Assembly (NCBI RefSeq): GCF_005924265.1
Contig: NZ_VCLB01000009.1
Location: 62,001 to 126,000 of the forward strand
Reading direction: 5' to 3'
Source: Martelella lutilitoris
GTDB lineage: Bacteria; Pseudomonadota; Alphaproteobacteria; Rhizobiales; Rhizobiaceae
Length of the DNA stretch: 64,000 nt
Position numbers and translations under genes: made by a program. Below are positions 10,046 through 62,766 of the stretch, in pieces (within the stretch, counting starts at the first letter, position 1; each line of letters starts with the position of its first letter). The notes beneath the pieces were generated by a model that was not told where the DNA came from, ran no database searches, and saw nothing but the letters and a program-made list of their open reading frames with translations.

Positions 10046-10152
10046 CTAGCGCATCGGCCCGAAAATCGGAATCGATTTTCAGAAAGCACGATGCGTAGAT
10101 TCAATAGGTTAGAGCGTCCTTTGTACGTCCGAATCGACGCACGGCGCTCTAG
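10046..10152. repeat. RIME1-like rhizobial intergenic mosaic element, copy 1
   Basis: A 107-bp element running from CTAG to CTAG, with two palindromes: CCGAAAATCGGAATCGATTTTC in the left half (split here as CGAAAATCG/CGATTTTC) and GTCC/GGAC-type arms in the right half before GCACGGCGCTCTAG. It is very similar to the copies at 62660 and 22646 (inverted), and less so to 59322. The terminal CTA on the plus strand (10149-10151) is the TAG stop codon of folK. Confidence 0.88.
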
Positions 10153-10664
10153 CTTTTCCACCAGGACCCGTCATCGCTGACAGGGTCGATGCCGTCCCTT
10201 TCCGCCGCATCGCGCCAGCCGACGACCGTGCGGCCCTCCACCACAAGATCCGGGGCGATTTCGGAAAGCGGCACGAGCACGAAGCCGCGCTCGGTCATGC
10301 GCGGGTGCGGGACGGTGAGAAGATCGCTTTCCTGTTTGATATCGCCGAAGGTCAGGATATCGATATCGATGAGGCGTGGGCCCCAGCGCCTGTCGCGCAC
10401 CCGTTTCAGCCGTTTCTCGATGTCGAGGCAGAAGCGCATCAAATCTTCGGGCGCCCGTTGCGTCTCGATCAGGGCACAGCAATTGATGAATGGCGGCTGT
10501 TCGACCGGCCCCCAGGGCGGCGTGCGATAAAGGCGCGAGACGGCGATGACCCGGGTCTGAGGGTCTGCGTCGAGAAGAGCCAGCGCCCGGGCCATGGCTT
10601 CGGTCGGTTCGCCCAGATTGCCGCCAAGGCCGAGCGTGGCGCGGACCGTCTCATTCGACATCAT
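10149..10664 (-). CDS. folK: 2-amino-4-hydroxy-6-hydroxymethyldihydropteridine pyrophosphokinase
   Basis: HPPK transfers pyrophosphate from ATP to 6-hydroxymethyl-dihydropterin in folate synthesis. The 171-residue protein shows LGLGGNLGEP at the N-terminus, SRLYRTPPWGPVEQPPFINCCA, and the signature RDRRWGPRLIDIDIL with the two magnesium-binding aspartates, then LTVPHPRMTERGFVLVPL. It is the last gene of folP-folB-folK; its start overlaps the end of folB (ATGATGTCGAATGA), so translation is coupled. ATG 10661 is an equally possible start. Its TAG stop lies inside the neighbouring RIME element. Confidence 0.94.
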   Translation of the reverse strand: MMSNETVRATLGLGGNLGEPTEAMARALALLDADPQTRVIAVSRLYRTPPWGPVEQPPFINCCALIETQRAPEDLMRFCLDIEKRLKRVRDRRWGPRLIDIDILTFGDIKQESDLLTVPHPRMTERGFVLVPLSEIAPDLVVEGRTVVGWRDAAERDGIDPVSDDGSWWKS

Positions 10665-11022
10665 AAGCGACCTTGGCCTCGGCATGGTCGAGAAGGCCGG
10701 GAACGGGGGCGGAGGGTTTGCGCACCGTCACCTCGATCCGCTTGATGGCATCGTAGTGGCGCGAAACCGAAACGGCGATCGCATGCGCCAGCGCCTCGAT
10801 CAGCTTGAAGCGGCGGCCGGTGACGACGTCCTTGGTGATGCGGTAGACCTCGCCGTAATCCACAGCCTCGGAGAAATCGTCATGCAGCACCGCCGCCTCG
10901 TCCTCGATATGCATGACGATATCGACGTAGAAGCGCTGGCCGAGCCGCTCCTCCTCTTCCATCACGCCGTGGGTGGAAAAGAAGGCGCAGTTTTTCAGGG
11001 TGATCACATAGCGGCCGTTCAT
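10651..11022 (-). CDS. folB: Dihydroneopterin aldolase
   Basis: The 123-residue protein converts dihydroneopterin to 6-hydroxymethyl-dihydropterin and glycolaldehyde. Family marks include the N-terminal ITLKNCAFFSTHGVMEEEERLGQRFYVDI with the conserved glutamates, VDYGEVYRI, and the C-terminal IEVTVRKPSAPVPG. The size is typical (about 120 residues, tunnel-fold octamer). It overlaps folP by four bases (ATGA) and folK by about 14 bases, forming a tight three-gene folate operon. Confidence 0.95.
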   Translation of the reverse strand: MNGRYVITLKNCAFFSTHGVMEEEERLGQRFYVDIVMHIEDEAAVLHDDFSEAVDYGEVYRITKDVVTGRRFKLIEALAHAIAVSVSRHYDAIKRIEVTVRKPSAPVPGLLDHAEAKVAYDVE

Positions 11023-11891
11023 GATGGGTCTCCGGTGTGTCGCGCGATCATGGCATCGGCGAATGCAAGCGCCGCGCGATTGGCGCCGACATTGTGCACA
11101 CGGAAAATCGCGCCGCCTGCAAGGCGGGTGATCGCGGTGGTCGATGCGGTTGCGAAATCGCGGGTCAGATTGTCGTCGGCGCCGCCGATTGCGGCAACGA
11201 AGCGCTTGCGCGATGTGCCGATCAGGATCGGCAGGTCGAGCGCATGAAGCGCGTCGAGATGCGCCATGATCGCCAGATTGTCCTCGACATCCTTGCCGAA
11301 ACCGAATCCCGGATCGATGACCAGCTGGCTGTCGTCAATGCCCGCTGCGCGCGCCGCTGCGAGCGCCTTGTCGAGGAAAAAGAGCTGGTCGGCGACGGCG
11401 TTGGCAAGCGTTTCGCGGTTCCGGCTCGTATGCGTCAGACAGTAACCTGCCCCGGTCTCCGCCGCGATCCGCAAGATTTCCGGCTCGGCCGTGCCGCCGC
11501 TCACGTCATTGATGATGTGCGCGCCGGCGGCGACGGCCCGACGCGCTGTCTCGGCGCGATAGGTGTCAATGGAAATCAGCGCCCCGGTCTTTTCCGCCAA
11601 TGCTTCGATGACCGGCAGAACCCGCGCCTGCTCTTCCTCAGCGGTTACCGGAGCGGCGCCAGGCCGGGTCGACTCCCCGCCGATATCGAGAATGGCCGCG
11701 CCCTCCTCGACAGCCCGCAGCGCGTGCACGACGGCAGCTGTCGAGGAGGCAAACTGTCCGCCATCGGAGAAGGAATCAGGCGTCACGTTGATGATGGCCA
11801 TCAGCACGCCGACGGGCCCGAGTGCAAGCCTACGGCCTTCGGTGCAGGAAAATGTGCGCGGCCTGAAGCAGGTCGTCGGGGCTAGCATCAT
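11019..11891 (-). CDS. folP: Dihydropteroate synthase
   Basis: The 290-residue enzyme condenses hydroxymethyl-dihydropterin pyrophosphate with p-aminobenzoate and is the sulfonamide target. It shows the two DHPS signatures, MAIINVTPDSFSDGGQF and ILDIGGESTRPGAAPV, then ISIDTYRAE, HIINDVSGG, LVIDPGFGFGKD and the ILIGTSRKRF substrate loop. The start at 11891 has GAGGG seven bases upstream; an in-frame ATG at 11948 would add a non-conserved 19 residues. First gene of folP-folB-folK. Confidence 0.95.
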   Translation of the reverse strand: MMLAPTTCFRPRTFSCTEGRRLALGPVGVLMAIINVTPDSFSDGGQFASSTAAVVHALRAVEEGAAILDIGGESTRPGAAPVTAEEEQARVLPVIEALAEKTGALISIDTYRAETARRAVAAGAHIINDVSGGTAEPEILRIAAETGAGYCLTHTSRNRETLANAVADQLFFLDKALAAARAAGIDDSQLVIDPGFGFGKDVEDNLAIMAHLDALHALDLPILIGTSRKRFVAAIGGADDNLTRDFATASTTAITRLAGGAIFRVHNVGANRAALAFADAMIARHTGDPS

Positions 11892-11967
11892 GGCCCTACC
11901 CTCTTTGCTTACGGATGGATCCGTCGCTTCGGTGTTGCGCTCGGCCAACCGCGCCGCGCGGCATCTG

Positions 11968-12288
11968 TCAGCCCTGCTCGTCGGGCACGCGCACCGTCAG
12001 CCCGTCGAATTCCGGACGCATGGTGATCTGACAGGACAGACGCGAATTGGCGCGCAGGTCGACGGCGAAATCCAGCATGTCCTCTTCCATCGGCTCCGGC
12101 TCGCCGACCTTTTCGAACCATTCCTCATCAACATAGACATGACAGGTGGCGCAGGCACAGGCGCCGCCGCATTCGGCCACGATGCCCGGAACGCCGTTGC
12201 GCACCGCGTTTTCCATCACGGTCGAGCCTTCCTCCACCTCGAGATCGTAAACAGTGTCATCATTACCGATGATTTTCAGTTTGAGCAT
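11968..12288 (-). CDS. Adrenodoxin-type [2Fe-2S] ferredoxin
   Basis: This 106-residue protein has the adrenodoxin/putidaredoxin cysteine spacing: C40-x5-C46-x2-C49-x36-C86, in ECGGACACATCHVYVD and SRLSCQI. Such ferredoxins pass electrons to cytochrome P450s or to iron-sulphur assembly and haem-A or quinone synthesis enzymes. The ATG at 12288 has AAGG eight bases upstream; an upstream in-frame ATG at 12324 adds non-conserved residues. It lies just upstream of folP in the same direction and may be co-transcribed, but there is no functional link to folate known to me. Confidence 0.92.
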   Translation of the reverse strand: MLKLKIIGNDDTVYDLEVEEGSTVMENAVRNGVPGIVAECGGACACATCHVYVDEEWFEKVGEPEPMEEDMLDFAVDLRANSRLSCQITMRPEFDGLTVRVPDEQG

Positions 12289-12820
12289 GTCATGGACCTT
12301 AGTGTTCAAAGTGCCGGGCGGCATCGGGGTTGACGGGTTCTTCCCTCATTCCGCGCGAACAGTCAATATTTACGACCGGCGTCCTTGCCCCGACCGCGGC
12401 AACCGCGTTCGCGGGAAGTTCGCCAATGTGTGGAAAGCCTCAGAAAAGGCGCATTATGGTTAATATTTGCTAAATGACGGAATTTGATCGCTTTTTGCAG
12501 CTCTTTTCGGCCGCATTTCAAGGCCAAACCGGCTTGTGGTCGGATACGGCCTGTCGGATGATGTTGTGTGGCTTTTATGAATATGCGATTGAAAACGGGG
12601 GTAATCCCTTGAAATAGAAGACATTTGCCTGTCTTCCACGACCTGCCGCCGCAAGCGGCGGTCGAAGCGGCAAGGCAAATGACGGCTGTTTCGAACCTGT
12701 GTGCCGGCCATCCGCCCTCCATAAGGGTCAGGCGGAACCGGTTTTGAAGTTTCAGGGTCTTTCGGGTGCTTCGGCTTGAGGCGAGCATCCGGGAAGGCCC
12801 GTGTGTCACGAGGCGTATCC
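12289..12820. other. Long intergenic region upstream of the giant gpr gene
   Basis: About 530 bases between divergent genes. It contains an AT-rich tract near 12455-12485 and a perfect CCGCCG-CAAG-CGGCGG hairpin at 12646-12661 without a T-run. No convincing ORF with a ribosome site was found. It must hold the promoters of the ferredoxin and gpr genes and could give gpr a long 5' leader. Confidence 0.4.
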
Positions 12821-15800
12821 ATGGCGAAACAATCAGGCGGCACTTCGCTCGACGATCAGGCCCTCCACGCGCTGGAGGATGCCCTGTCACCCGATCCGTC
12901 CGAGCAGAACGCCGACGGCGATGCGCCGCGCGAACAGGAAACGCAGCCGCGCAAGGAAAGCGTGTTCGGGCGTCAGGCCGCCAAGAGCGCCCGCGCCGAG
13001 GAAGAGCGCGCCAACGCCCCCCGGCCCAAGTCGCCCGCCTTCCGTCCCGCAAATGATCCGGGCATGCTGTCGACGCAGCGCGTGCTCAAGGCCTTCGAAC
13101 GCCGTTCCACCATCAAGGCCCTGCGCACGTCCACGATCATGTCCGCCGGCTGGCTGGCACTCGGCGTCACGGGAACGCTGGTGGCCTTCGGCAGCCGGAT
13201 CTTCAATGCCTCCTCCTTCGCCGACATTCTGAGCATTGACGGCATCGGCCTGGCCGCAGCGCTGACCGTCGCCCCGATCTTCGTCTTCTACGCCTTCAAC
13301 ATCATGCTGGCACGCGCGCGCGACATGCAGGAAGCCGCCCGCTCCATGGCCGAGGTGGCGTTGCGCCTGTCCGATCCGGACGAGAACGCCGCCCAGCAGG
13401 TGCGCAGCGTCAGCCAGGCCGTCCGCCGCGAAGTCTATGCCATGAACGAAGGCATCGAACGCACGATTGCCCGCGCTTCGGAACTTGAAAACCTTGTTCA
13501 TTCCGAGGTCAATGCGCTGGAACGCAGCTATGCGGACAACGAAATGCGCATCCGCAACCTGGTGCAGGAACTGACGGCAGAGCGCGAGGCCGTGGTCAGC
13601 CACGCCGCCCGTCTCAGGACCTCGATCCTTGGCACCAATGACCAGTTGAAGGACCAGATCGGCACGGTCATGGACGAACTCACGCGCAAGGTGAGCACGG
13701 CCGGCGACGGGGTTGCCGAAATGCTCGAGACCCGCGCCGCCGTGATCAACGAGAACACCGCCCGCGCCGTCGCCTCGATCGGCGACCTGCTGGAAGACCG
13801 TTCGAGCGCGCTCAGGGGCGAATTCGACCGCAGCTATGGCGAACTCTCTGACCTCTTCGACAAGCGCTTCAACGATCTCTCGCAGCGTTTCGACGAACGC
13901 GGCCGCACGCTGATCGGCGACTTCACCGCAAGCGCCACCGCGCTCAATGAGGAGACGGAGCAGCTGACCTCCGCTCTTGCCGAACGCGGTGGCAAGCTGG
14001 AGACGCTTCTCGGCGAACGAACGCAGACCCTGCGCACGGTTGCCGAAGAAAGCGAGACCGCGATGAACGCCGCGCTGGAGCGGGTCGTCGGCGGGCTGTC
14101 GACGACGCTCAGCGAAAGCCAGACCCGCTTCAACCGGCAGATCAGCGAGACGGACGAGGAAATCGCCCGCCAGGTCGAGGAACGCAGCCAGTATGTCGAC
14201 CAGCGCCTCGAGGCAACGATCTCGCGTCTCGGGACCGATCTCGACAGCCGGCTCGATGCCTTCACCAGCGCCTTCGAGGAGAGCGGCAGCGCCATGGAAG
14301 GGCGGATCGACCATACGCTCGGCCGCTTCAACCAGATCTTCTCCGAAGGCGGCTCGAGCATCGGCTCGATGCTGTCCCATGCCTCCGACCGGCTGCAGGA
14401 GCAGATGACGGATCACACGCTGGCTCTGGCCACAACCCTTTCGACCAGCACGGAAATGCTCGACCAGACGCTCAAGACCCGCGTCAACGAAGTCAGCGAG
14501 ACTTTCAGCACCGATCACGGAAGGCTCGAAAAGGTCTTCTCCGATGCATCGGAACGACTGGAGGAAAAGCTCGCCCGGTTCAACCAGCAGATCGCCGGCG
14601 GCGAGGCCAATATCAGCGCAACGCTGGATGATGCCGGCGAAAGGCTCGGCGAACGCCTCAACGACCAGGCGATCATGCTCGCCACCACGTTGTCGACCAG
14701 CGAGGAAGCGTTTGCCATGTCGCTCGAGGGCCATACCGCCCGGATCGAGGAGCGGATGCGCGAGGGCAATGAACGCCTGAGCGGCACGCTGACGGGCGCT
14801 TCGGACCGGATCGACAGCCAGCTTGCGCAGTTCAACGAACGCATCGGCAGCGGAGAGAACGGCATTGCCGCCGTTCTGGACAATGCCTCGCAGCGCCTGC
14901 AGGAGCGCATGAACGACCATGCGGCCGGGCTGGCCACGACGCTGTCGATCAGCGAGGAAACCTTCGGCGAAAGCCTCGGCGCGCATACGGAAAGGCTGCA
15001 GACGGCCCTGCGCGAAGGTCAGGAGCGGCTCGACGGCTCGCTTTCCGGCGCTTCCGAACGGCTTCAGTCGCAACTTGCGAACTTCGACGCTACGGTCAAC
15101 GCGGGCGAGACGGGGATCGCCTCGGCGATGTCGTCGGCGACGGAACGCCTCAACGAACAGATGAACGACCAGGCGATCATGCTCGCCACCACGCTTTCGG
15201 CGGCCGAGGAGACCTTCGCCCAGACGATCGACGCCCGAACCGCAAGGCTCGGAGAAACGCTCGAAAACGGCCAGGGCCGGCTCGATCGCGCACTTGGCGA
15301 AACAACAGGCCATCTCGATCGACAGTTGGAGCAGTTCAACGCGCGTCTCGACAGCAGCGAAGCAGGGATCACCGCGGCGCTTTCCGGCGCCAGCGAACGG
15401 ATCGAGACGCAGCTTTCCGAAAAATCAGACCTGCTGTCCCTCAGCCTTTCCTCGGCGCAGACCGCGCTCGAGGAGACCTTTGACGCGCATGAGCGTCGCC
15501 TGAGCGATGCGAGCGAGAAGGGCCGCGAGCGGATCGCGGAGACGCTCGACAATACCGGCCAGCGCTTCGAGACCTCAATCGGAAACGCGGCAGAAAGGCT
15601 TGAGGCCGGCTTGAGCCGGCGCGAGGAAAGCATCAGCGCTGCCCTCTCCGGCGCCTCCGAGCGACTGGACGAGCGTCTTTCCGACCATGCCATGATGCTG
15701 GCTGCGACCCTTTCGACCAGCGAGGAGAGCCTCGGCCAGACGATCGATTCTTCGACCTCGCGTCTTGCCGAAACGCTGGCGGAAAGCCAGACGCGCCTGA

Positions 15801-19057: not shown

Positions 19058-19274
19058 GGCAGGCTATCGAACTGACGAACAGGCTGAGGGGCGGTAGCGA
19101 AGATCGCCCTTTTGCTTGCCGACATTGCACTCGGCACACCGGCCGTGACCGTTGGCCTTGCCAGCAGAGCCATGCCCGGCTTAGCCCGAAGTTCGAACGA
19201 TTTAGTCCATCGAATTTCAGGAATAATCTCGGCGAGTTTTTTTGGCGAGCGGCCAAGATGCGCCGCCCGTTGCG

Positions 19275-20285: not shown

Positions 20286-20294
20286 CGGCTCACC

Positions 20295-22595: not shown

Positions 22596-22645
22596 GAAAA
22601 CTCTCCCGGCGGGGTCCGGAGCGGGCGCGCCCCGGACCGCACGCT

Positions 22646-22752
22646 TTGGAGCGCCGTGCGTCCATTCGGATGCGCAAGGGACGCTCTATCGTGTTGAAAC
22701 GACGCATCGTGCTTTTCGAAAATCGATTCCGATTTTCGGGCCGATGCGCTAG
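22646..22752. repeat. RIME1-like element, copy 2 (inverted orientation)
   Basis: A 107-bp element in opposite orientation to copy 1, ending GATTTTCGGGCCGATGCGCTAG on the plus strand; the outer left end is degenerate (TTGGAGCG instead of CTAGAGCG). It lies between livK and livG. Its terminal CTA (22749-22751) is the TAG stop of the binding-protein gene. Confidence 0.87.
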
Positions 22753-24026
22753 CCGATCGGCTTCATTGTGCCCGTGAGCGGGATTTCCGGATGGTCCTTG
22801 TTCTCGACGATCTCGAGAACCGGCTTGTCGCCGTCCATGTGCCACTGGCCGCCGACCAGCGGCGTCTTGGCGACATTGGGAACCGGACCCTTGGAGAAAT
22901 CGATCGGGCCGACAATGGAGTTGTAATTGGTCGCCGCGATCGCCCTTGCGATCGAATCCGGATCGGAGATGTCTTCGGTGCGCTTCAACGAATCGACCAC
23001 GACCTCGAACAAAGCGTGCTTGAAGCCGAGCGGCATGGTCCAGGGATTGCCGGTCGCCTGCTCGTAGGCCTTGGCAAGCTCGGCCGATGACTGGCCGGTG
23101 AAGCCGGACGAGAACGGATGATAGGGCGACCACCAGACCTCCACCGAAAGACCGTCAGCGCGCTGGCCGAGACCGGCGACAGCCTGCGGAAACTCGGTGG
23201 CCTTGGCGACATTGACGACCTTCGGGGCAAAGCCCTGCTGGGCGGCTTGGGTCCAGAAGGTGGTGAAATCCGGCGGCACGACAACGCCGGTGACAATTTC
23301 CACGCCGGCATTCTTGAAAGCGGAAATCTGCGCGGAAAAATCGTCGGAGCCGGACTGGAAGCGGCCAGGATCGACGAGCGAATAGCCGCGCTTTTCCATG
23401 ACCGGCGGGAAGCCCACCGTCTTGTCGCTCCAGCCGTTGCCGTCCGGATCATTCGGCCAAAGCGCGCCGACAACCTTGTTGGTCGGCACCGCGTCCCACA
23501 TGTTGATGAAGGTGGAGATGACGTCCTCAAGCCCCCAGAAGAAGTGGTAGGTGTACTGGAAGCCGACCTTGGGGTCGCCCTGCCGGCCGAAGAAATGCGG
23601 CTGCCAGGGCGTATCATTGGTCACGCAGGGCACGCCGTTGAGCTCGGCCTGGTCGGCCACCGGGTTGGTGGTGTCGGGCGTCGAGGCGGCGCAGAGAATG
23701 TCCACCTGGTCGCTGAAAATAAGGTCCTGAGCGACCGACGAGGCGCGGTTCGAACTCGACTGGCTGTCCTTGACGATGATCTCCACGGGATGTTTCGTGC
23801 CGTTGATCATCAGCCCGTCAGCAAGGCCCTTGGAGAACTGCTCGATGGTGAAGCGATCCGGCTCGGCGAAGATGGCGAGCGGTCCGGTTTCCGGCGAGAC
23901 GAAGCCGATCTTGATCGTCTTCGCCGCCGCAATCGCCGGCATGGCGAGTCCGCCGGTCGCGGCGAGCGTTCCGGCCACGCCCGTGGTCTTGATGAACGTC
24001 CTGCGCGTGATGAATTTTCTGGACAT
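22749..24026 (-). CDS. livK: Branched-chain/aromatic-type ABC transporter substrate-binding protein, Tat signal
   Basis: This 425-residue periplasmic protein starts MSRKFITRRTFIKTTG, a twin-arginine (RRTFIK) signal, then TIKIGFVSPETGPLAIF, the start of the peripheral-binding-protein fold for LivJ/LivK-like receptors. GGAGG precedes the ATG at 24026. Members of this subgroup commonly bind aromatic acids, amides or branched amino acids. The neighbouring meta-cleavage operon suggests the ligand is an aromatic compound degraded via catechol. A Tat signal on a Liv-type receptor is common in rhizobia. The stop codon TAG is supplied by a RIME element. Confidence 0.9.
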   Translation of the reverse strand: MSRKFITRRTFIKTTGVAGTLAATGGLAMPAIAAAKTIKIGFVSPETGPLAIFAEPDRFTIEQFSKGLADGLMINGTKHPVEIIVKDSQSSSNRASSVAQDLIFSDQVDILCAASTPDTTNPVADQAELNGVPCVTNDTPWQPHFFGRQGDPKVGFQYTYHFFWGLEDVISTFINMWDAVPTNKVVGALWPNDPDGNGWSDKTVGFPPVMEKRGYSLVDPGRFQSGSDDFSAQISAFKNAGVEIVTGVVVPPDFTTFWTQAAQQGFAPKVVNVAKATEFPQAVAGLGQRADGLSVEVWWSPYHPFSSGFTGQSSAELAKAYEQATGNPWTMPLGFKHALFEVVVDSLKRTEDISDPDSIARAIAATNYNSIVGPIDFSKGPVPNVAKTPLVGGQWHMDGDKPVLEIVENKDHPEIPLTGTMKPIG

Positions 24027-36528: not shown

Positions 36529-36590
36529 GGTCGGCCCCCGACACTGACTGACGGATCGGCGCTTTTGAGTGCGCCACCCTCGCTTACCGG

Positions 36591-36669
36591 GTCATGCTCG
36601 GGCTTGACCCGAGCATCCAGGCCACACTGAAAACGCTGCCTGGATTCTCGGGTCAAGCCCGAGGATGAC
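36591..36669. repeat. Large near-perfect inverted repeat, 32-bp arms
   Basis: The arms 36591-36622 and 36638-36669 pair at 30 of 32 positions around a 15-base loop. Each arm also contains its own small CTCGGG-(5 nt)-CCCGAG hairpin, so the whole can fold either as one long hairpin or as two small ones joined by a CCAGGC/GCCTGG stem. The small hairpin recurs at 502-524 and 623-645. It lies between cysS and the GFA gene, both leftward. Confidence 0.88.
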
Positions 36670-36721
36670 GCTCCGGGAGGGTGCATCGGGATTGATGAGA
36701 GCAATGGGCGGACGACAGTCT

Positions 36722-39384: not shown

Positions 39385-39954
39385 GTGAATTGGAAAGCCT
39401 CGACTCTGATCGGTCTTGTCGCAATCGTATCGGCAGGCTGCGTCAGTGAAAGCAGCCCCTTCTCCCACGCAAATCCCGCCTTCGAAAAATACTACAACGG
39501 ACCGACGGCGAAGAGCAAAGCACTCGAGAAGTCTTTCTCCGGCCACACGCGGATGACCTATGAGCCGATCCACGGGACTCAGGTGGAGTATTTTTCGCCC
39601 GACGGACGTACATACCTCTGGTACCCGGGCAACAAGGTCGTGCTTCCGGGGCTTTGGGAAATGCGAAGCTATACCATGCCCAATCTGGACCTCACCAACA
39701 TCAACAGGCCTGTGCTCCGCGTCGAGGAGGTCATACCGCTCTGTTTCCAGTACGGAAAGAAAACCTACAATCCCGCCACGCGCAAGCATGGAGACTACTG
39801 GAGCTGCTCAATAGCAAGCCCTCGTCCGATAACCAGGGGTGAACTCCGGCGAGGCGATATCTTCAGGCTCTCGGAGCGTGTGAAGTCGCCATTCATCCTG
39901 CCAAAAGACAAGACCACCTTCACGGCATTGTTGAAGCAGTGCGGCGACTGCTAG
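39385..39954 (+). CDS. Putative lipoprotein of unknown function
   Basis: This 189-residue product starts with a GTG preceded by GGGGGGAAG, then a hydrophobic signal ending in the lipobox VSAGC, so lipid attachment is expected. The mature part has tryptophans and cysteines (YLWYPGN, GLWEMRSY, CFQYGKKTY, YWSCS, CGDC) recalling DUF995-type rhizobial envelope proteins, but the family assignment is weak. An in-frame TTG at 39370 would spoil the signal. Its TAG stop is the first CTAG of the repeat at 39951. Confidence 0.65.
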   Translation: MNWKASTLIGLVAIVSAGCVSESSPFSHANPAFEKYYNGPTAKSKALEKSFSGHTRMTYEPIHGTQVEYFSPDGRTYLWYPGNKVVLPGLWEMRSYTMPNLDLTNINRPVLRVEEVIPLCFQYGKKTYNPATRKHGDYWSCSIASPRPITRGELRRGDIFRLSERVKSPFILPKDKTTFTALLKQCGDC

Positions 39955-40056
39955 AGCGGTTCCGCCTTTGGTGGGAACGCGACTCCGCTCCATCTACTTG
40001 TTTTGACGCATTTTCGCGAACACCAGATGTTTCCATCCGACTGCGAAATGGTCTAG
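39951..40056. repeat. RIME-like element of a second type
   Basis: A 106-bp element from CTAG to CTAG, with the internal phrase CTACTTGTTTTGACGCATTTTCGCGAA, broken here into CTACTTGTTTTGACG and CATTTTCGCGAA, recalled from other rhizobial intergenic repeats. It differs from the four RIME1-like copies inside but shares their length and CTAG ends. Both neighbouring genes, which converge, end with TAG codons lying in these ends. Confidence 0.7.
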
Positions 40057-40505
40057 TCGCCGATGACCACCGTCATGTTGTCCAGTCCGACGGACTGGGC
40101 CAGGCTGAAGAGTAGCGCCGCATTGTCGGGATGAAGCCGCACGCAACCATGCGAGGCGCGGGAGCCGAGACGCGACAGCTGGTCGGTCCCGTGAACCGCA
40201 TAGCCGTGATAGAAAAAGATGGCATAGGGCATCGGCGCATTGTTGTATTTGCGCGACCGGTGGTTTTTCGACAGCCATTCCGCGCCGTAGATGCCCTCGG
40301 GCGTAGCGTAGCTGCCCGCTCCCGTCGATACCGGCCAGACATAGCGTTCATAGCCGCCGACGATGACTTTCATTGTCTGGCTGCGGAGGCTGACGGCTGC
40401 GACAACCTTGCCGGGCTCGAAAATGTCACCGCCCGACTTGCGGGCCGCGTCGGCAACGGACGCCGTCGCCAACAACGCGATGAGCGCGACAAGAAAAGAC
40501 CGCAT
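40053..40505 (-). CDS. L,D-transpeptidase (YkuD family)
   Basis: This 150-residue protein has a signal peptide (MRSFLVALIALLATASVADA) and a YkuD catalytic domain; the motif H105-G-T-D then S118-H-G-C121-V-R123 carries the catalytic cysteine. L,D-transpeptidases cross-link peptidoglycan or tether lipoproteins to it in the periplasm, a major activity in polar-growing Rhizobiales. ATG at 40505 fits the signal. The TAG stop comes from the repeat at 39951-40056. Confidence 0.92.
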   Translation of the reverse strand: MRSFLVALIALLATASVADAARKSGGDIFEPGKVVAAVSLRSQTMKVIVGGYERYVWPVSTGAGSYATPEGIYGAEWLSKNHRSRKYNNAPMPYAIFFYHGYAVHGTDQLSRLGSRASHGCVRLHPDNAALLFSLAQSVGLDNMTVVIGD

Positions 40506-40622
40506 GATATCCCCCGGATACACATAAACCCTTGAAGTCAAGTTATGCGCACCGGGGAATTCATTCAACGCGTTACTGCAAACAAGGTAAACAATTCAGA
40601 CTTGACGCGCGCGTTACTGGTA

Positions 40623-49810: not shown

Positions 49811-49856
49811 TTTTCCGTTTCGATGGTCTCTAGGTGTTTGCGTTCCTATCGGGCAT

Positions 49857-49881
49857 AAAAAAAGGCCCCTTCAAGGAGCCT
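49857..49881 (-). terminator. Attenuator terminator of the ilv operon
   Basis: On the minus strand AGGCTCC and GGGGCCT form a 7-bp stem (one G-T pair) around TTGAA, followed at once by a run of seven T. It lies between the leader peptide and the first ilv gene, the normal place for an attenuator. Confidence 0.9.
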
Positions 49882-49885
49882 GTCG

Positions 49886-49937
49886 TCGCGCATGGGTGGC
49901 TTATGCCGGATGGTTACACCATCCTGCCCATGCGCGA
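49886..49937 (-). promoter_or_regulatory. Pause/antiterminator hairpins of the ilv leader
   Basis: TCGCGCATGGG and CCCATGCGCGA are perfect 11-bp arms (49886-49896, 49927-49937) enclosing GGATGGT-TAC-ACCATCC (49908-49924). The outer left arm overlaps the region just before the terminator stem, so pairing here depends on how far a ribosome has moved along the leader ORF. The exact alternative fold was not computed. Confidence 0.65.
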
Positions 49938-49970
49938 TCCCACCACAATAAGAAGTTCTTTCATAGCCAT
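49914..49970 (-). CDS. Leu/Ile/Val leader peptide of the ilv operon
   Basis: The 18-residue ORF reads MAMKELLIVVGSRMGRMV and has five consecutive branched-chain residues (LLIVV), the hallmark of an attenuation leader. ATG 49964 (MKELLIVV) is an alternative start. When charged Leu, Ile or Val tRNA is scarce the ribosome should stall at LLIVV and allow transcription past the terminator at 49857-49881 into the acetolactate synthase genes. Ribosome-site support is weak, but position, sequence and following hairpins agree. Confidence 0.85.
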   Translation of the reverse strand: MAMKELLIVVGSRMGRMV

Positions 49971-50082
49971 GCTTGGCTGATAGCCCGTCTTGCCGCATCA
50001 GTCAACGCGCATTGCAAGAAAAATAGCCAAACGGGCGATCGAGTGAAATTAAATTAGGCAGAACTGGCGGCGCCCGCCGAGG

Positions 50083-52431: not shown

Positions 52432-52436
52432 GGCCG

Positions 52437-53945: not shown

Positions 53946-54052
53946 CTTGCCTCCGTCTAAGCCTTTGTCGCGGCGGGTTTTCGAAAAACCGGCATGCGCT
54001 TTGCCGCCGACGTCCAGTCGATTGCCATCATAGCGGAAGGCGAGCGGCAAGC

Positions 54053-54244
54053 CTATCCGCGGATCAGCCAGACCAGGCCGACGCCGAGAGTCACGGCGAT
54101 CAGACCGGTCACGCGCAACGCGCCCTCCGGCACCGTCGGCAAAAGCCGCGCCATGGCAATGAGCAGCGAAGGGGCCAGCGCGTAGACCAGCCCCTCGATG
54201 ATCAGATAAAACGCAAATCCGATCAAAATATCCTGCGGCAGCAT
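54053..54244 (-). CDS. DUF2065 small membrane protein
   Basis: This 63-residue protein has two hydrophobic helices (FAFYLIIEGLVYALAP and VTGLIAVTLGVGLVWLI) and the DUF2065 layout with a conserved PEGALR between them. DUF2065 genes commonly lie between hflC and the Do protease, as here; the stop of hflC and this start share one base. No function is known. Confidence 0.88.
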   Translation of the reverse strand: MLPQDILIGFAFYLIIEGLVYALAPSLLIAMARLLPTVPEGALRVTGLIAVTLGVGLVWLIRG

Positions 54245-56360: not shown

Positions 56361-56513
56361 TCACACCTCTTCCAAAATAGTCCGTTCCTGGCTGCAGAAC
56401 CATTGCCGCAGCCGCGCATTGACGCATTAAGCGTTTGTCCCGTTATAGGGACGCGACAGGGCGCTTTCAACGCGATCGGTCAACTGTGCGCCGAAATCGC
56501 GGTAAATTCCTGT

Positions 56514-57029
56514 TCATCGGGCTTTGCGGGCATAGACCACATAGCGCGTCGGATAGTCGTCCTTTTCGCCGGCCGGCAGGTTCTCGCTGCTTTCAGGTTG
56601 CCAAAGCGCCGGATCGATCACAGGAAAAGTGGTCTGCCCGTCGGCCTCGGTTTCCACATGGGTGATGCGCAAACGGTCGGCGAGCGTCATCGCCTGCCGG
56701 TATATCTCGCCACCGCCTTGCACATAGATTTCGTCGAGGCCCTTTTCGGCAGCATCCTTGCGGGCCAGCGCAACAGCCTCTTCAAGGCTCGGCACGACAA
56801 TGCATCCGGGCGCCAGGAAATCCGGGTTGCGCGAGATGATGATATTCATCCGCCCCGGCAGCGGCTTTCCAATCGACTGATAGGTCTTGCGTCCCATGAT
56901 CTGGGGCTTGCCCATGGTCAGAGCCTTGAACCGCCGAAAATCCGATCCCAGGTGCCAGGGCATCGCCGCGCCGTTGCCGATCACGCCGTTTTTCGCGACG
57001 GCGGCCATGATTACGATTTCGGCAGTCAT
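56514..57029 (-). CDS. folA: Dihydrofolate reductase
   Basis: The 171-residue enzyme reduces dihydrofolate with NADPH. It shows VIMAAVAKNGVIGNGAAMPWHLGSDFRRFK with the active-site acid, IMGRKTYQSIGKPLPGR, and VQGGGEIYRQAM. GGAGG precedes ATG 57029. It directly follows thyA, which makes the dihydrofolate it recycles; the two lie 28 bases apart, the classical pair. Confidence 0.95.
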   Translation of the reverse strand: MTAEIVIMAAVAKNGVIGNGAAMPWHLGSDFRRFKALTMGKPQIMGRKTYQSIGKPLPGRMNIIISRNPDFLAPGCIVVPSLEEAVALARKDAAEKGLDEIYVQGGGEIYRQAMTLADRLRITHVETEADGQTTFPVIDPALWQPESSENLPAGEKDDYPTRYVVYARKAR

Positions 57030-57057
57030 CAACCCCGCCTCCTCACATGTCTGTCGC

Positions 57058-57852
57058 TCAAACCGCAATCGGCGCCTTGATCGACGGCGCGGCCTCATAA
57101 CCCTCGAGGACAAAATCCTCGAAGGTGAAGGCGAACAGATCGTCGACGTCCGGATTGAGCCGCATCACCGGCAGGCGCCCCGGAATGCGGGAAAGCTGCT
57201 CGCGCGCCTGCTCAAAGTGGTTGGCGTAAAGATGGGCGTCGCCCAGCGTGTGGACGAAGTCGCCAGGCTTCAGGCCGGTCACCTGCGCCACCATCAGCGT
57301 CAGCAGCGCATAGGAGGCGATATTGAAGGGCACGCCGAGGAAGATGTCGGCGGAGCGCTGGTAAAGCTGGCAGGACAGTTTTCCATCGGAAACATAGAAC
57401 TGGAACAGGCAGTGGCAGGGCGGCAGCGCCATGTTGTCGACCTCTGCCGGGTTCCAGGCGGTGACGATATGGCGACGACTGTCGGGGTTGTTGCGGATGC
57501 TCTCGACCACTTTCGCGATCTGGTCGATATGGCCGCCGTCCGGCGTCGGCCAGGAGCGCCACTGCGCGCCGTAGACGGGGCCGAGATCGCCGTTTTCGTC
57601 GGCCCATTCGTCCCAGATCGAGACGCCGTTTTCCTTCAGATAGGCAATGTTGGTGTCGCCCTTCAGGAACCACAGCAATTCGTGGATGATGGAGCGCAGA
57701 TGCAGCTTCTTCGTCGTGAGAACCGGAAAGCCCGCCGCAAGGTCATAGCGCATCTGGTAGCCGAAAACGGAGCGCGTGCCCGTGCCGGTCCGATCCGCCC
57801 GGTCGGTTCCGTTTTCAAGCACGTGGCCCAGAAGATCCAGATATTGGCGCAT
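57058..57852 (-). CDS. thyA: Thymidylate synthase
   Basis: The 264-residue ThyA methylates dUMP using methylene-tetrahydrofolate. It has [19 protein letters not shown], the catalytic cysteine in [13 protein letters not shown], and [30 protein letters not shown]. The length equals that of the E. coli enzyme. It is the first of the co-directional genes thyA-folA-hflK-hflC. Confidence 0.97.
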
Positions 57853-57984
57853 AATGCTCCCTCGTTCGAAGTCGGTTTTCTCTTCTATCGCGACGAAAGG
57901 CGCCGCGAAAAGGGCCCGGAGACGCCTTTCCCCGCCTTTTGCGCGCCACCCCCCTTTGCAGAAGCTTTTGAAACACTTATATCA

Positions 57985-58318
57985 AGCGTGCCGGCTTGAC
58001 CGGCTATGGTGATAAACGGCGTTGTAATAAGCTCATTGGACCCGGGGGCGGTACCCGGCGCCTCCACCACAAACAGGCGGTTCAGGCCTTTTTGTGATGG
58101 GGGCGAAACAGGATCGACAAGAGTGTAAAGAACGACCTTTTACCCGGCATGATACCACCGTTATCGGGTCAAACGAGTAGTTGCAAATGACAACAAAGCT
58201 CAGGGTTACGCTGTAGCTGCCTAATGGCGGTTCCAGAAACCCACCTTAAGTCCTTGCGGGTAGCACTGTAAGGCGGGGTCCGGAGGCACCTGGCAACAGA
58301 AGCCTCCACCTGAATTTG
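57985..58318 (+). ncRNA. ssrA: tmRNA, circularly permuted two-piece alphaproteobacterial form
   Basis: The acceptor piece comes first, ending with T-arm, CGCCTCC, A and CCA (58059-58069). After about 29 bases of excised linker the coding piece starts with GGGGGCG (58099-58105), whose pairing with CGCCTCC rebuilds the acceptor stem. The tag frame from GCA at 58183 encodes ANDNKAQGYAVAA and stops with TAA at 58222-58224. A GGAGGC/GCCTCC hairpin (58282-58307) closes the 3' end. The order shows the permuted form of alphaproteobacteria. Outer ends are estimates. tmRNA frees stalled ribosomes and tags the protein for ClpXP; the adaptor gene sspB follows. Confidence 0.92.
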
Positions 58319-58413
58319 AACAAAATCCCCTATAAAGATTGCGCATCGGCATCAGGCGACTTAATTGGCTACAGGCAGAGCGCAATCAAACGGCCAAGGG
58401 CGGGAAAGACGTG

Positions 58414-58893
58414 ATGGGGCAAGACCATATTCGCTACGACATTCTGGCACAGGACGCACTGCGCGGCATGGTGCGCAAGGTTCTCGCAGAGGTCGCCGCA
58501 ACAGGCCACCTGCCCGGTGAGCATCACTTCTTTATCACCTTCCTGACCAATGCCCCCGGCGTGCGCATCTCCCAGGCGCTGAAGGAAAAATACGCCCAGC
58601 AGATGACCATCGTCATCCAGCACCAGTACTGGGACCTGAAGGTGACCGACAGCCATTTCGAGATCGGCCTGTCCTTCTCCGATGTGCCTGAGCGCCTCGT
58701 CATCCCCTTCAACGCCATCGTCGGCTTTTACGATCCGTCGGTGAATTTCGAGCTCGAATTCGATGTCGCCACGCTGGATCTGGAAGACGAAAAGCCGCTC
58801 GAGCCGGAAAACGAGGGTGGTGACGATGACGGCCCCGGCGGCGATGACGGCGCTTCGGTCGTCTCCCTCGATGCCTTCCGCAAGAAGCACTGA
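58414..58893 (+). CDS. sspB: SspB, ClpXP adaptor for ssrA-tagged proteins
   Basis: This 159-residue protein is of the alpha-type SspB family (DUF2203-like fold; COG3814): IRYDILAQDALRGMVRKVLAEVA, HHFFITFLTNAPGVRIS, and DVPERLVIPFNAIVGFYDPSVNF, then an acidic linker and the ClpX-binding tail SVVSLDAFRKK. It tethers tmRNA-tagged proteins to ClpX. ATG 58414 is preceded by GGGAAAG. It lies directly after the tmRNA gene, so tag and adaptor are encoded side by side. Confidence 0.92.
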   Translation: MGQDHIRYDILAQDALRGMVRKVLAEVAATGHLPGEHHFFITFLTNAPGVRISQALKEKYAQQMTIVIQHQYWDLKVTDSHFEIGLSFSDVPERLVIPFNAIVGFYDPSVNFELEFDVATLDLEDEKPLEPENEGGDDDGPGGDDGASVVSLDAFRKKH

Positions 58894-58899
58894 CAGCCG

Positions 58900-59118
58900 A
58901 TGTGCGCAGAGATCGTCAATCTCAGGATGAGCCGCAAGCGCGCGGCGCGGCAGAAGGCAGCCGACAACGCTGCTGAAAACCGGGCGATCCACGGCCGCAC
59001 AAAGGGCGAAAAGAGCCGGGACAGGCTGGAACGCGAGAAGAGCGAACGGCGCTTCGAGCAGGGCCGCATCGAAGGCCTGCCGTCGACGCTCCCTTCGCAA
59101 GGGGACAAGGACGTTTGA
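58900..59118 (+). CDS. DUF4169 small basic protein
   Basis: This 72-residue protein has the DUF4169 pattern: AEIVNLRMSRKRAARQKAADNAAENRAIHGRTKGEK, presented here as AEIVNLRMSRKRAARQ then NRAIHGRTKGEK, followed by a basic charged helix. Function is unknown. Seven bases after sspB, it is likely in its operon. Its TGA overlaps the TTG start of the next gene. Confidence 0.82.
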   Translation: MCAEIVNLRMSRKRAARQKAADNAAENRAIHGRTKGEKSRDRLEREKSERRFEQGRIEGLPSTLPSQGDKDV

Positions 59119-59327
59119 TCCGCAAGCGCTCCGTCAGCCTCCACGGCCACCGCACGAGCTTTTCCCTTGAGGATGCATTCTTCAACGAGATCCGTGACAT
59201 TGCCGACAGGCGCGATGTCAGCCTTGCCTACCTTCTCAGCGAAATCGACGAACAGCGCCCGCCGGATGTGAACCTCTCCTCCGCCGTGCGCCTGTTCGTG
59301 CTGGATGACCTGAAGGCGCGCCTATAG
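59115..59327 (+). CDS. Ribbon-helix-helix domain protein
   Basis: This 70-residue protein fits the RHH_4 family: KRSVSLHGHRTSFSLEDAFFNEIRDIADRRDVSLAYLLSEID, given here as KRSVSLHGHRTSFSLED and ISLAYLLSEID-like VSLAYLLSEID, a ribbon followed by two helices. It may bind DNA as a dimer. It begins with TTG overlapping the DUF4169 stop, and its TAG lies in the left end of a RIME element. Its target is unknown. Confidence 0.8.
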   Translation: MIRKRSVSLHGHRTSFSLEDAFFNEIRDIADRRDVSLAYLLSEIDEQRPPDVNLSSAVRLFVLDDLKARL

Positions 59328-59430
59328 CATCGGGCGAAAAAGTGGGATCCGGTTTTTCGAAAAGAACGATGCGCAGATTCAATAAGTTAGAGCGTCCTTT
59401 GTGCGTCCTAAAGGACGCACGGCGCTCTAA
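59322..59430. repeat. RIME1-like element, copy 3 (diverged)
   Basis: A ~109-bp element beginning CTATAGCATCGGG and ending GCACGGCGCTCTAA. It keeps the right-hand palindrome (GTGCGTCC-TAAA-GGACGCAC) and the phrase GATTCAATAAGTTAGAGCGTCC but has a changed left palindrome. Its left end carries the TAG stop (59325-59327) of the RHH gene. Confidence 0.83.
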
Positions 59431-59460
59431 TCGCCCGATGATCTAAAGTCCTGAAGCGTC

Positions 59461-60987
59461 CTACTCGGCCGCATCCCGCCTTTCGGCCTCTTCCGCCGGC
59501 GCGTCCGGGTTCCCGCCCGCCGTCTGCCGGTCGAGATCGGGGAAGGCGACGATGCGCAGGCCGGCAAGATCGGTATGCAGCACAATCAGCCCCTGCTCCT
59601 CGAACCAGTCGAGAAAGCGCCGGGCGCGACGCGCCGAATGCGTGCCATAGGCGCGCGCGATCATGGCGTCCGAGGGGCAGGCATCGCCGGCGATCGCCGC
59701 CTTTGCCAGCATCAGGAACACGCCCTGCAGGTCTTCGGTGACATGCGCCAGCAGCGAGACCGCCATCTGCCATTGCTCGCTTTCCACCATCGCCGCGTCC
59801 GCGCCCGAACGGGCGATCGCGAGCCGGCGGCGAAATTCGTTCATGGCAAGCGGCGCGCCGGATATTCGTTTCATCCGGCCGCGCATCAAAAAGTCCTGAT
59901 AAAGCTCTGAATCAGAACGGAAAGCTGATTCCGGAGCGCCGGCGATTTCCGCCAGCGTCATCGCGATCCAGTCGTCCTTCTCCTCATCCGACATGACCGG
60001 CGCACGGGGTCCGCGCGCGGGCGTCTCCGGCGCTTCGGCCTCTTCGGAAGACTTCGCCAGAGCGTCCATGATGTCGACGGTCGGGCGCGGACGCGGGGCC
60101 ACCCGGCGCGGGGTCGAGGCCTGACGGGCCATATCTTCCGGATCCGGCGTGAAGATCAGATCCTCCACATCCTCCGGCTTTTCCGGCAACGGCATCAGCT
60201 TCGGGCTGGAGGAGCGCGCGGAGGTTTCCACCGGCCCGATCGTCACCGCCAGAGGACGGCGCGACAACGCCGGGCCAAGCGCGACGAAATTGCCGCGCTT
60301 CAGATCGCGAAACTGTTCGGCCTGGCGGCGATCCATGCCGAGAAGATCGGCCGCGCGCGCCATATCGATGTCGAGAAAGGTCCGCCCCATCAGAAAATTC
60401 GAGGCTTCCGCAGCGACATTCTTGGCAAGCTTGGCCAGCCGCTGGGTGGCGATGACGCCGGCAAGGCCGCGCTTTCGCCCGCGACACATCAGGTTGGTCA
60501 TGGCCCCGAGTGAAAGCCGGCGCACCTCCTCGCTCACCTCGCCGCCGGCAGACGGGGCAAACATCTGCGCCTCGTCCACCACGGTCAGCACCGGATACCA
60601 GTGGTCGCGGTCGGCATCGAAAAGCGCATTGAGGAAGACGGCGGCGGCGCGCATCTGGTCGTCGATCTCGAGACCTTCCAAAGTCAGCACGCAGGAGACC
60701 CGGTGCTGGCGGATGCGGTTGGCGATACCGATCAGCTCGCCCTCGGAGCGCTCGGCATCGACGACGATATGGCCGAACGCGTCCGAAAGAGTGACGAAAT
60801 CGCCCTCCGGATCGATCACCACCTGCTGCACCCATTTCGCCGACTGCTCCAGGAGCCGGCGCAGGAGGTGGGATTTGCCCGAGCCGGAATTGCCCTGCAC
60901 CAGAAGACGGGTCGCCAGCAGCTCCTCGATATCGAGTTTGGCCACGTCACCCGCCGATGTCGTTCCCATATCGATATCGACCTGCAC
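59461..60987 (-). CDS. HerA-like DUF87 ATPase
   Basis: This 508-residue protein has Walker A VQGNSGSGKSHLLRRLLEQ, VVIDPEGDFVTLSD, Walker B VLTVVDEAQMFAP, and GVIATQRLAKLAKNVAAEA with the sensor region, typical of HerA/FtsK-related DUF87 ATPases. Residues about 300-370 are a proline-rich linker and the rest a helical C-terminal domain. GTG 60987 has AAGG six bases upstream; ATG 60969 is possible. Stand-alone HerA-like genes are common in rhizobia; no NurA nuclease gene is nearby, and the role is unknown. Confidence 0.88.
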   Translation of the reverse strand: MQVDIDMGTTSAGDVAKLDIEELLATRLLVQGNSGSGKSHLLRRLLEQSAKWVQQVVIDPEGDFVTLSDAFGHIVVDAERSEGELIGIANRIRQHRVSCVLTLEGLEIDDQMRAAAVFLNALFDADRDHWYPVLTVVDEAQMFAPSAGGEVSEEVRRLSLGAMTNLMCRGRKRGLAGVIATQRLAKLAKNVAAEASNFLMGRTFLDIDMARAADLLGMDRRQAEQFRDLKRGNFVALGPALSRRPLAVTIGPVETSARSSSPKLMPLPEKPEDVEDLIFTPDPEDMARQASTPRRVAPRPRPTVDIMDALAKSSEEAEAPETPARGPRAPVMSDEEKDDWIAMTLAEIAGAPESAFRSDSELYQDFLMRGRMKRISGAPLAMNEFRRRLAIARSGADAAMVESEQWQMAVSLLAHVTEDLQGVFLMLAKAAIAGDACPSDAMIARAYGTHSARRARRFLDWFEEQGLIVLHTDLAGLRIVAFPDLDRQTAGGNPDAPAEEAERRDAAE

Positions 60988-61064
60988 TTTTCGCCTTTGC
61001 CTTCTGTTCGGTGTTGCGCCCGTTTGTAACAGGTCAGGAGCGCCCGTGCCGAGACCTTGCCGCG

Positions 61065-61796
61065 TTACCCACAGCTTTCCGGGGTGACGATCTTCAGCGC
61101 CTCCGCGGGCAGGCCGAAGGTTTCGACCAGGCCCACCTGTCCGGCGCGCGTCAGGGTCAAGGCGCGACCGTCGCCGGCCGGCCTCAGCCAGTGCCGCTCG
61201 CAACAACGTTCAAGCATCGCGGCGCCAAGCCAGCCGCCGATGTGAGGCCGGCGCTCGCTCCAGTCGAGACAGGTCCGACAAAGCGCCCGCCGGCTCTTTC
61301 TGGCGGTCGAGAGCGAGATGCCGAACTCCGTCAGAAACGCCTCTCCCCTTTCCGTCACCATGCCGGCATTGCCGTCGAAGACGACCGCGCCGGACCGCAC
61401 CATCGAATCGGCGATGCCGACCGCGATCGCACCGGCCATGTGGTCGTAGCATGTGCGCGCCACCCTCAGCGCTTCGTCCTTCGGTCCTGTCGGGCGGTAT
61501 CGCACGGGGCCGATGGCCGAGAGCAGGCTCAGATGTTCCAGCGTTTCGGCAACCTCCGCCGACGCCAGCCGAAAATAGCGATGCCTGCCCTGTTTTTCGA
61601 CGGTGACCAGCTGCCCATCCACGAGCCTGGAAAGATGATTGCTCGCCGTCTGCGGCGAAACACCCGCGCATTCGGCCAGTTCCCCCGCCGTCAGCGCCTT
61701 GCCGCCGAGAAGCGCCGCCAGAATGCTCGCGCGCGAAACATCGCCGATGAGCGCGGCGACGGCGGCGAGCGTATTTCCCGAAACCATGTTTGTCAT
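61065..61796 (-). CDS. ArsR-type winged-helix regulator
   Basis: This 243-residue protein has an N-terminal ArsR winged helix (IGDVSRASILAALL, LTAGELAECAGVSPQTASNHLSRL, GRHRYFRLAS) and a longer C-terminal domain with three or four cysteines (CRTCLDWSERRPHIGG, ERCCERHWL) that may sense metal or redox state. ATG 61796 or 61787 could be used. It diverges from the DUF1127 gene, which it may regulate. Confidence 0.85.
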   Translation of the reverse strand: MTNMVSGNTLAAVAALIGDVSRASILAALLGGKALTAGELAECAGVSPQTASNHLSRLVDGQLVTVEKQGRHRYFRLASAEVAETLEHLSLLSAIGPVRYRPTGPKDEALRVARTCYDHMAGAIAVGIADSMVRSGAVVFDGNAGMVTERGEAFLTEFGISLSTARKSRRALCRTCLDWSERRPHIGGWLGAAMLERCCERHWLRPAGDGRALTLTRAGQVGLVETFGLPAEALKIVTPESCG

Positions 61797-61913
61797 AGCT
61801 CTCAATCTACCACCGCAAACCGCCGCCGTCAGCGTCCGTTACTTCGTTCCCGATCGAAGCATGCGCGAAGGCAGACAGGCTATTGCCTTCGTCTCCAACC
61901 GAAGGAAAAGCCC

Positions 61914-62123
61914 ATGCATGAGACCGTGATCGCCAAACCCCGCTCCCTACCGACGAAGATCGCCACAGGCGCCCGCAATCTGGCGAGGCTGATCTTCATC
62001 CGCTGGCCGCAGCGCCGCCGGCAACGCCTGCAACTCCTCGAAATGACCGACGAACGGCTGCGGGATATCGGCATCGAGCCGCATCAGGCCCGGCAAGAAG
62101 CCAGCCGTCCGTTCTGGAGCTAG
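61914..62123 (+). CDS. DUF1127 small basic protein
   Basis: This 69-residue arginine-rich protein has the DUF1127 C-terminal motif (QLLEMTDERLRDIGIEPHQARQEASRPFW, read here as LLEMTDERLRDIGI and HQARQEASRPFW). AAGGA lies seven bases before ATG 61914. DUF1127 proteins in rhizobia link to phosphate and RNA-binding stress roles. It overlaps the 3' end of mntR by four bases, tail to tail. Confidence 0.85.
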   Translation: MHETVIAKPRSLPTKIATGARNLARLIFIRWPQRRRQRLQLLEMTDERLRDIGIEPHQARQEASRPFWS

Positions 62124-62536
62124 CCCTTCTTCAAAAACGCCTCGAAGGCCGCGAGCGTCTCGTCGGAGACATGATGCTCGATGCCTTCGGCGTCGAGCTC
62201 GGCAGCCTCTTTGGGAACGCCGACGGCCAGAAGCAGATCGAAAACCAGGGCGTGGCGGATGCGTGCCTTCTCGGCCATGGCCTCGCCGGCCTCCGTCAGA
62301 AACACGCCGCGATAGGGCCGCGATGTCGCAAGCCCCTCGCGCTTCAGCCGGGAAACGGCCTTTGCCGCCGTCGGATGGGCAATGCCCATGGCTCTGGCGA
62401 TATCGACCAGTCGCGCTTCGCCGTGCTCCTCGGTCAGGTCAGCGATCAGTTCGGTATAGTCCTCCAGAAGCGCGGAGGCGCGTTCCGAGCGGGCCTTGGA
62501 GAATCGATCCGCCTGATTGTCGGTTCCGTCGCTCAT
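62120..62536 (-). CDS. mntR: MntR, DtxR-type manganese regulator
   Basis: The 138-residue protein has a DtxR winged helix (LVDIARAMGIAHPTAAKAVSRLKREGLA) and metal ligands in the dimerisation helices (RHALVFDLLLAVGVPKEAAELDAEGIEHHV, given as RHALVFDLLLAVGV and EGIEHHVSDE). It represses manganese uptake when Mn2+ is plentiful. It faces mntH across about 340 bases, and an MntR-like palindrome lies in the mntH promoter. Confidence 0.92.
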   Translation of the reverse strand: MSDGTDNQADRFSKARSERASALLEDYTELIADLTEEHGEARLVDIARAMGIAHPTAAKAVSRLKREGLATSRPYRGVFLTEAGEAMAEKARIRHALVFDLLLAVGVPKEAAELDAEGIEHHVSDETLAAFEAFLKKG

Positions 62537-62659
62537 ATCCTTCTCCCATGCCCTCCGGGACCAGACTGTCCCGATCGTCCGCCAGAAAAGCCAGTTCCTG
62601 TGGCGAAATCAAGCCCGTATACACTTTCAAGCCGCGGCTACACTTTGTCATCAGCAAGC

Positions 62660-62766
62660 CTAGCGCATCGGCCCGAAAATCGGAATCGATTTTCGGAAAG
62701 CACGATGCGTGGATTCAATAGGCTAGAGCGTCCTTTGTGCATCCGAATGGATGCACGGCGCTCTAG
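62660..62766. repeat. RIME1-like element, copy 4
   Basis: A 107-bp CTAG-to-CTAG element almost identical to copy 1, with GAAAATCG-GAAT-CGATTTTC and GCATCC-GAAT-GGATGC palindromes. It lies in the mntR-mntH intergenic region, upstream of the mntH promoter, and supplies no stop codon here. Confidence 0.9.

Follow-up and report, generated by a model that had tools for sequence, protein, structure and literature searches.

The window analysed here, a 64,000-nucleotide stretch of Martelella DNA, carries short palindromic elements whose edges coincide with the stop codons of neighbouring genes. In 27 of the 55 best-scoring copies of its source genome (G000; Rhizobiales, 4.45 Mb, with nearest folK relatives also in Martelella), a terminal TAG serves a called gene as its in-frame stop (16 on the left, 15 on the right and four on both sides). 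We favour, with a probability of about 0.85, an account in which these are miniature inverted-repeat transposable elements (MITEs) resembling RIME1, the Rhizobium-specific intergenic mosaic elements (Osteras et al. 1995, cited in PMC2573895), moved by an IS630-type transposase and using stop codons as silent landing sites. Comparison of sequences demonstrated the features that carry this account, namely duplication of a TA, a YTAR target (Y, pyrimidine; R, purine), stops at the same codon in relatives and a contrast between element ends that begin with G (G-first) and with C (C-first).

In detail, non-autonomous MITEs of ~107 bp, with ends like those of IS630-family transposons, would be inserted by a trans-acting transposase at a TA within YTAR, mostly CTAG, and duplication of the TA would give Y-TA-[G...C]-TA-R. 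In a gene formerly ending in TAA or TAG, the TA and the element's first base G would again make TAG at the old codon, so that the protein would remain unchanged. As the palindromic target looks alike from both sides, convergent genes sharing a CTAG or CTAA would both keep their stop. Insertions whose end base does not rebuild the stop (C-first, giving TAC) would be removed, and, with CTAG scarce, insertions inside genes lost and those near promoters rarer, stops would form a big share of the harmless targets. An IS630-type helper, cut-and-paste movement and purifying selection as the filter are what we infer behind this pattern.

Copies were sought across the genome with two seeds, positions 10046-10152 (family A) and 39951-40056 (family B) of the window, and genes were called with a hexamer-based finder of our own, for which 1.08 Mb of the same genome served as training data. 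The set comprises 41 copies of family A, counted without five secondary matches inside the same palindromes, and 14 of family B; it is a lower bound, 40 of 84 first-look candidates having been scored. The 1.08-Mb sample held 11 further weak or partial stretches beyond the 55, the copy at a ribbon-helix-helix (RHH) gene of the window not counted, and in four of these 11 the terminal TAG was a stop. With a length of 106-107 bp, which is within MITE size, the copies have no room for a transposase gene.

CTAG is scarce in the window (19 observed, 66.2 expected), and eight of the 19 fall within five element stretches that together cover 533 of the 64,000 bases. Free CTAGs in the 1.08-Mb sample comprised 30 at stops, 103 between genes and 86 inside genes. 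The genome-wide tally of 27 in 55 contrasts with 30 in 133 free non-coding CTAGs (p=1.4e-5), and C precedes the stop TAG in 28 of 31 element stops versus 55 of 318 background TAR stops (TAA or TAG). Estimated occupancy, taken as elements against free CTAG scaled up from the sample, was 0 within genes, 3% between divergent, 7% between codirectional and 12% between convergent genes, and 16% at single stops; at double stops, four elements stand against no free CTAG site in the sample and roughly four sites of any YTAR type, a figure scaled from a single one. A transposase that merely picks CTAG or YTAR, without any selection on frame closure, would fit the rarity of CTAG, the many stops that hold it and the nearness of the 16% and 12% values. 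Occupancy alone cannot separate stops from other 3' sites, so that a preference for the former could not be derived from it and the end bases were compared instead. Pure target choice already strains at the ratio of stop to intergenic sites, 27:28 for elements and 30:100 for free CTAG (p=8e-4), which exceeds availability.

In three other genomes, 12 of 20 (G002), six of 13 (G005) and two of seven (G008) copies lay at stops, these copies being drawn from the best BLAST matches and not from full copy sets. In RefSeq annotation accessed via PLSDB, the coding sequence ends four bases into the element in seven of the ten plasmid matches opened (five Rhizobium, two Martelella), the seven having been picked for a feature under the match and those of G002 and G011 overlapping the genome sets; two of the other three had no usable gene table and one had no stop there.

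The target was read from copies with intact ends, defined by TAG inward on the left and CTA on the right, so that the outer bases alone form the test. Both ends were intact in 32 of the 55 copies, and all 32 had Y on the left and R on the right (21 C..G, seven C..A, four T..G and no T..A). The two outer bases differ in 11 of the 32, meaning that the duplicated unit is TA and not CTAG. A 4-bp CTAG duplication is excluded by these 11 copies, all still Y..R, and by a further locus, L016. There our gene reads GCC TA[G...C]TA AGAGAAAATG; the corresponding stretch in four relatives is GCA TAA GAGAAAATG or near it. TA[G...C]TA AGAG thus stands against TAA GAG in four of four relatives, and by this alignment the old A still lies beyond the element, whose G turned TAA into TAG. 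Where both flanks of an end abutting a stop could be read, G stood on the far side in 29 and A in nine of 38 clusters. Three tandem pairs of copies overlap by 3-4 bases, and two of these share one CTAG. The terminal CTAG is the target's duplicated TA between its own Y or R and the end base of the element; it is no stop-making device, and it also occurs in copies that lie nowhere near a stop.

Orthologous gene ends were sought for 28 stop ends, 12 of them in 12 genomes of the genus and 16 in four. Alignments ending before position 119 were left out, and element-free tallies drop rows with an element within 30 nt; three loci (L002, L003, L128) gave no usable row and one (L133) an occupied row only. 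The 24 remaining sites have at least one relative without a family A or B element, and at 23 of them the gene stops at the same codon. By rows, the same codon was a stop in 83 of 86 element-free cases (82 of 85 without the G011 row of the RHH gene). The lone exception is the RHH gene, where G011 stops inside a third type of repeat and G010, G009 and G002 read past the codon. The nearest element-free relative has TAG at eight, TAA at eight and TGA at seven of the 23 sites; at one locus (L126) G002, with TGA, was taken as nearest, since the G011 row carries a 14-base remnant of an element start. TAR, found at 16 of the 23 sites, exceeds its share among the sampled stops (318 of 983, p=3e-4). Insertion inside genes, with truncation at the terminal TAG making new gene ends, would suit the RHH gene with its three relatives that read on, but it is discarded as a general rule by the same-codon stops, no called gene spans any of the 55 copies, and we regard it as highly improbable. 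The proposal of the initial annotation that elements settled at or replaced gene ends hence divides: settling occurs above chance, and the creation or replacement of ends failed the check in relatives. Likewise, elements supply stops literally for the third base alone, and perhaps for a whole stop at the RHH gene.

Convergent genes give a special case. At 39951-40056, element-free G002 has a single CTAG closing both convergent genes. G000 has its family B copy here, and in G011 the YkuD stop holds a family A element, beyond which the sequence differs. Just to the right of the window, a copy at G000:C18:126188-126298 (L023) parts a convergent gene pair whose members share 4 bp of overlap in four of four close relatives. 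Not every double-stop copy could be traced to such an overlap, as at another locus (L026) the convergent genes lie 27 and 43 bp apart in the two relatives checked.

The comparison of end bases was possible due to two subtypes of family A, some copies beginning TA|CAGCATCGG (C-first) rather than TA|GCGCATCGG (G-first). We call the end that occurs in both types, TA|GC (TAGC) or TA|CA (TACA), the X end. Reading into TA|CA yields TAC (Tyr), a sense codon, which by construction rules out a stop at the TA of a C-first end; the fair count is therefore that of coding frames entering the TA in stop phase, for which the 45 codons upstream of the TA were scored for coding. An earlier form of the comparison, which asked for zero distance between end and stop (28 of 64 versus 0 of 30), was set aside for the phase test as partly true by construction for C-first ends. 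A coding frame in stop phase was found at 34 of 83 G-first X ends and one of 47 C-first X ends (Fisher 2.5e-7), and the lone C-first match (L415) is merely the shadow that a strongly called gene casts on its antisense strand. The opposite, G-first ends of the C-first copies had such a frame in 14 of 29 cases (Fisher 1.3e-6 against the 1 of 47), and G-first ends of other copies in 10 of 51. Counting called genes with orthologues collapsed, the figures were 27 of 77 for TAGC, 0 of 46 for TACA, 11 of 28 for the G-first ends of TACA copies and 12 of 48 for others. No in-frame read-through was seen at C-first ends in the 46 collapsed clusters; the stops of C-first copies all face the G-first end (11:0, p=0.001), and where the 3' end of a gene faces a C-first end, the element begins 5 nt or more beyond the stop.

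Of the 47 C-first copies 23 come from G003, and the 11 stop clusters of C-first copies stem from seven genomes, with five clusters from G003. The C-first subtype is abundant in G003 (37 pattern matches with at most one mismatch), and the G-first subtype in G005, G010, G011 and G000. The subtypes reflect separate bursts of the two end types.

Since both ends of C-first copies meet the same target, the difference between 1 of 47 and 14 of 29 tells against target choice as the whole explanation, which we consider quite unlikely, and it supports the suggestion of the initial annotation that selection keeps copies that close a frame. Retention of copies for the benefit of their hairpins, serving as transcription terminators or mRNA 3' ends, would explain the strong folding of family A (z -8.0 and -8.5 for the two strands of 62660-62766, -4.2 for 10046-10152) and the climb of occupancy toward convergent and stop sites. 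Yet 28 of the 55 copies lie away from stops, C-first copies are found past stops and not in them, and the folding of family B is weak (z -1.95 and -3.05), which makes this explanation rather unlikely. Going one step beyond silent landing, stops might be an evolved safe harbour, where YTAR, TA duplication and a G-first terminus render insertion into TAA or TAG invisible in the protein and give G-first ends a lasting advantage over C-first ones. We put this forward tentatively, as a possible but doubtful extension; if true, end base and target would have adapted to each other, and in any carrier genome the end base alone would set how large a share of the copies sits in stops.

Regarding the mover, a scan found TA-flanked ends in nine of 30 IS630 loci of the genus, most of them CTA|GAGC...GCTC|TAG. 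Eight ends of four IS630 loci and ten ends of five IS5 loci served as references for the element ends. Family B matched the IS630 ends at 20 and 18 of 26 positions and the X end of family A at 17 of 26. Of 8,000 random TA-following 26-mers none scored as high, and of those starting with G less than 0.1% did. DDE_3 (IS630) matches occur in eight of 13 genomes of the genus. Transposases of the IS5/IS427 type could be thought of as movers as well, for IS711 duplicates the TA of YTAR (according to the part of PMC2266754 covered here) and DUF4096 (IS5) transposases occur in 12 of the 13 genomes, several flanked by CTA...TAG. Their ends, however, begin with GG and match the element ends at 11-12 of 26 positions, which is the random level and not significant, whereas IS630 matches three of the four ends; IS5/DUF4096 is thus unsupported as the source of the ends, and we judge it an unlikely mover.

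Several points weigh against our account of IS630-moved elements landing silently in stops. The G-first end of family A matches the IS630 ends at 13 of 26 positions only, a weak score that 3-6% of random sequences reach, and G000 itself has no DDE_3 or DUF4096 match, so that the helper would be gone or of a kind outside the scan. The RHH stop misfits the model, as element-free relatives read on, and at the seven of 23 sites with TGA in the nearest element-free relative a prior change to TAR must be assumed; the control for stop turnover is small (one of eight TAR stops; 40 genes, eight with TAR). Selection would follow from the contrast of end types, with which an insertion bias by end type is compatible too. 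Moreover, the copy set is incomplete and was seeded with two sequences only, gene calls are our own throughout except for the RefSeq annotation of the plasmid matches, and orthologous copies were collapsed by flank similarity alone, orthologous insertions lowering their independence.

Within the window, the elements and adjoining genes are the following.

10046-10152, plus strand: family A element, closing folK (minus strand) through its right TAG at 10149-10151.
10149-10664, minus strand: folK (HPPK, Pfam), stop 10149-10151.
22646-22752, minus strand: family A element whose G-first end has decayed (TTGGAGCG); the binding-protein gene stops at its right TAG, 22749-22751.
22749-24026, minus strand: periplasmic binding protein (Peripla_BP_6), stop 22749-22751.
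39385-39954, plus strand: gene earlier read as a lipoprotein, stop 39952-39954.
39951-40056, plus strand: family B element between convergent genes; its left TAG closes the gene 39385-39954 (plus) and its right TAG the YkuD gene (minus).
40053-40523, minus strand: L,D-transpeptidase (YkuD), stop 40053-40055.
59115-59327, plus strand: RHH gene (RHH_4), stop 59325-59327.
59325-59430, plus strand: mosaic element, third repeat on the left and family A on the right; its first TAG closes the RHH_4 gene.
62660-62766, plus strand: family A element, intergenic, upstream of an Nramp (mntH-type) gene; closes no called gene.

All five genes named in the initial annotation end in TAG at an element edge at the coordinates given there, and the observation itself is confirmed, including the copy near mntH that closes nothing. 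The RHH stop, however, is ATAG and not CTAG, and the element at 39951-40056 belongs to the second family; taken as a whole, the earlier interpretation is partly supported. In element-free relatives the folK codon is TAG in G011 and G002 and TGA in G010 and G009. At the binding-protein stop the element is present in G011 and G002 as well and absent from G010 (TGA). The supposed lipoprotein gene had no Pfam match. The element at the RHH gene (L213) resembles a fusion of the third repeat with family A, and G011 has both side by side.

RIME1 reportedly contains two large palindromes in about 100-130 bp, and folding found two palindromes in the ~107 bp of family A. Family A is also like RIME1 in its many copies, mostly between genes, a likeness drawn by description and not by published consensus. 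It matches 392 plasmid records, 297 from Rhizobium and 84 from Sinorhizobium, with 87-93% identity among the matches listed for plasmids of these two genera. As differences from RIME1, we describe here a duplicated TA, a site in stop codons and a C-first subtype. As to single hairpins, stretches with one hairpin were seen in G010 (L255, bordered TAG...TTAA), G011 (L293, TTAG...CTAA) and G002 (L295), which suggests that one hairpin may move or persist alone.

Comparable elements are known from other bacteria. RUP of pneumococcus is a 107-bp MITE for which IS630-Spn1 was proposed as mover (PMC2229807); like our elements it is a short IS630-type MITE with similar terminal repeats and a TA target, but the part of that paper covered here reports no use of stop codons, and a resident IS630 is known there while none was found in our genome. 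IS630 itself targets the TA in 5'-CTAG-3', going by the title of Tenzen and Ohtsubo 1991 (in PMC2170065). IS630 copies of the genus with found ends are mostly flanked by CTA...TAG, sharing the TA target in CTAG with our elements, but are autonomous and ~1 kb long. An IS481-family transposon of Rhodococcus equi, TnRErm46, also uses CTAG and provides some of its target genes with TAG stops (PMC6794481), so that, as far as the sections covered go, a CTAG element leaving its target gene intact is already in print for one transposon; it is, however, a 6.9-kb resistance transposon with NCTAGN repeats, and end bases are not surveyed in those sections. Bru-RS1/2 and IS711 of Brucella are similar by description in the part of PMC2266754 covered, being palindromic repeats linked with an insertion sequence that duplicates the TA of YTAR. 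Among open-access papers, searched mostly by listing, we found no report of MITEs in stop codons with an effect of the end base.

The occurrence of repeats at gene ends can thus be turned into a testable rule, by which TA-duplicating G-first ends use stops without cost and C-first ends cannot. With two natural end types in one family, selection on the outcome of insertion can be addressed separately from the choice of target, and at the shared-stop loci one sees how convergent genes that overlap can become separated. For annotators, TAG stops within repeat ends can be real.

Further features of the window include another palindromic repeat (TCGGGTCAAGCCCGAGGATGACGC) without CTAG borders at 36587-36671 and 611-652, one copy of which is a near-perfect inverted pair. 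A transfer-messenger RNA (tmRNA) gene lies at 57951-58310, where the permuted tmRNA family matched too, and the small RNA Atu_C8 is located at 49847-49968 on the minus strand.

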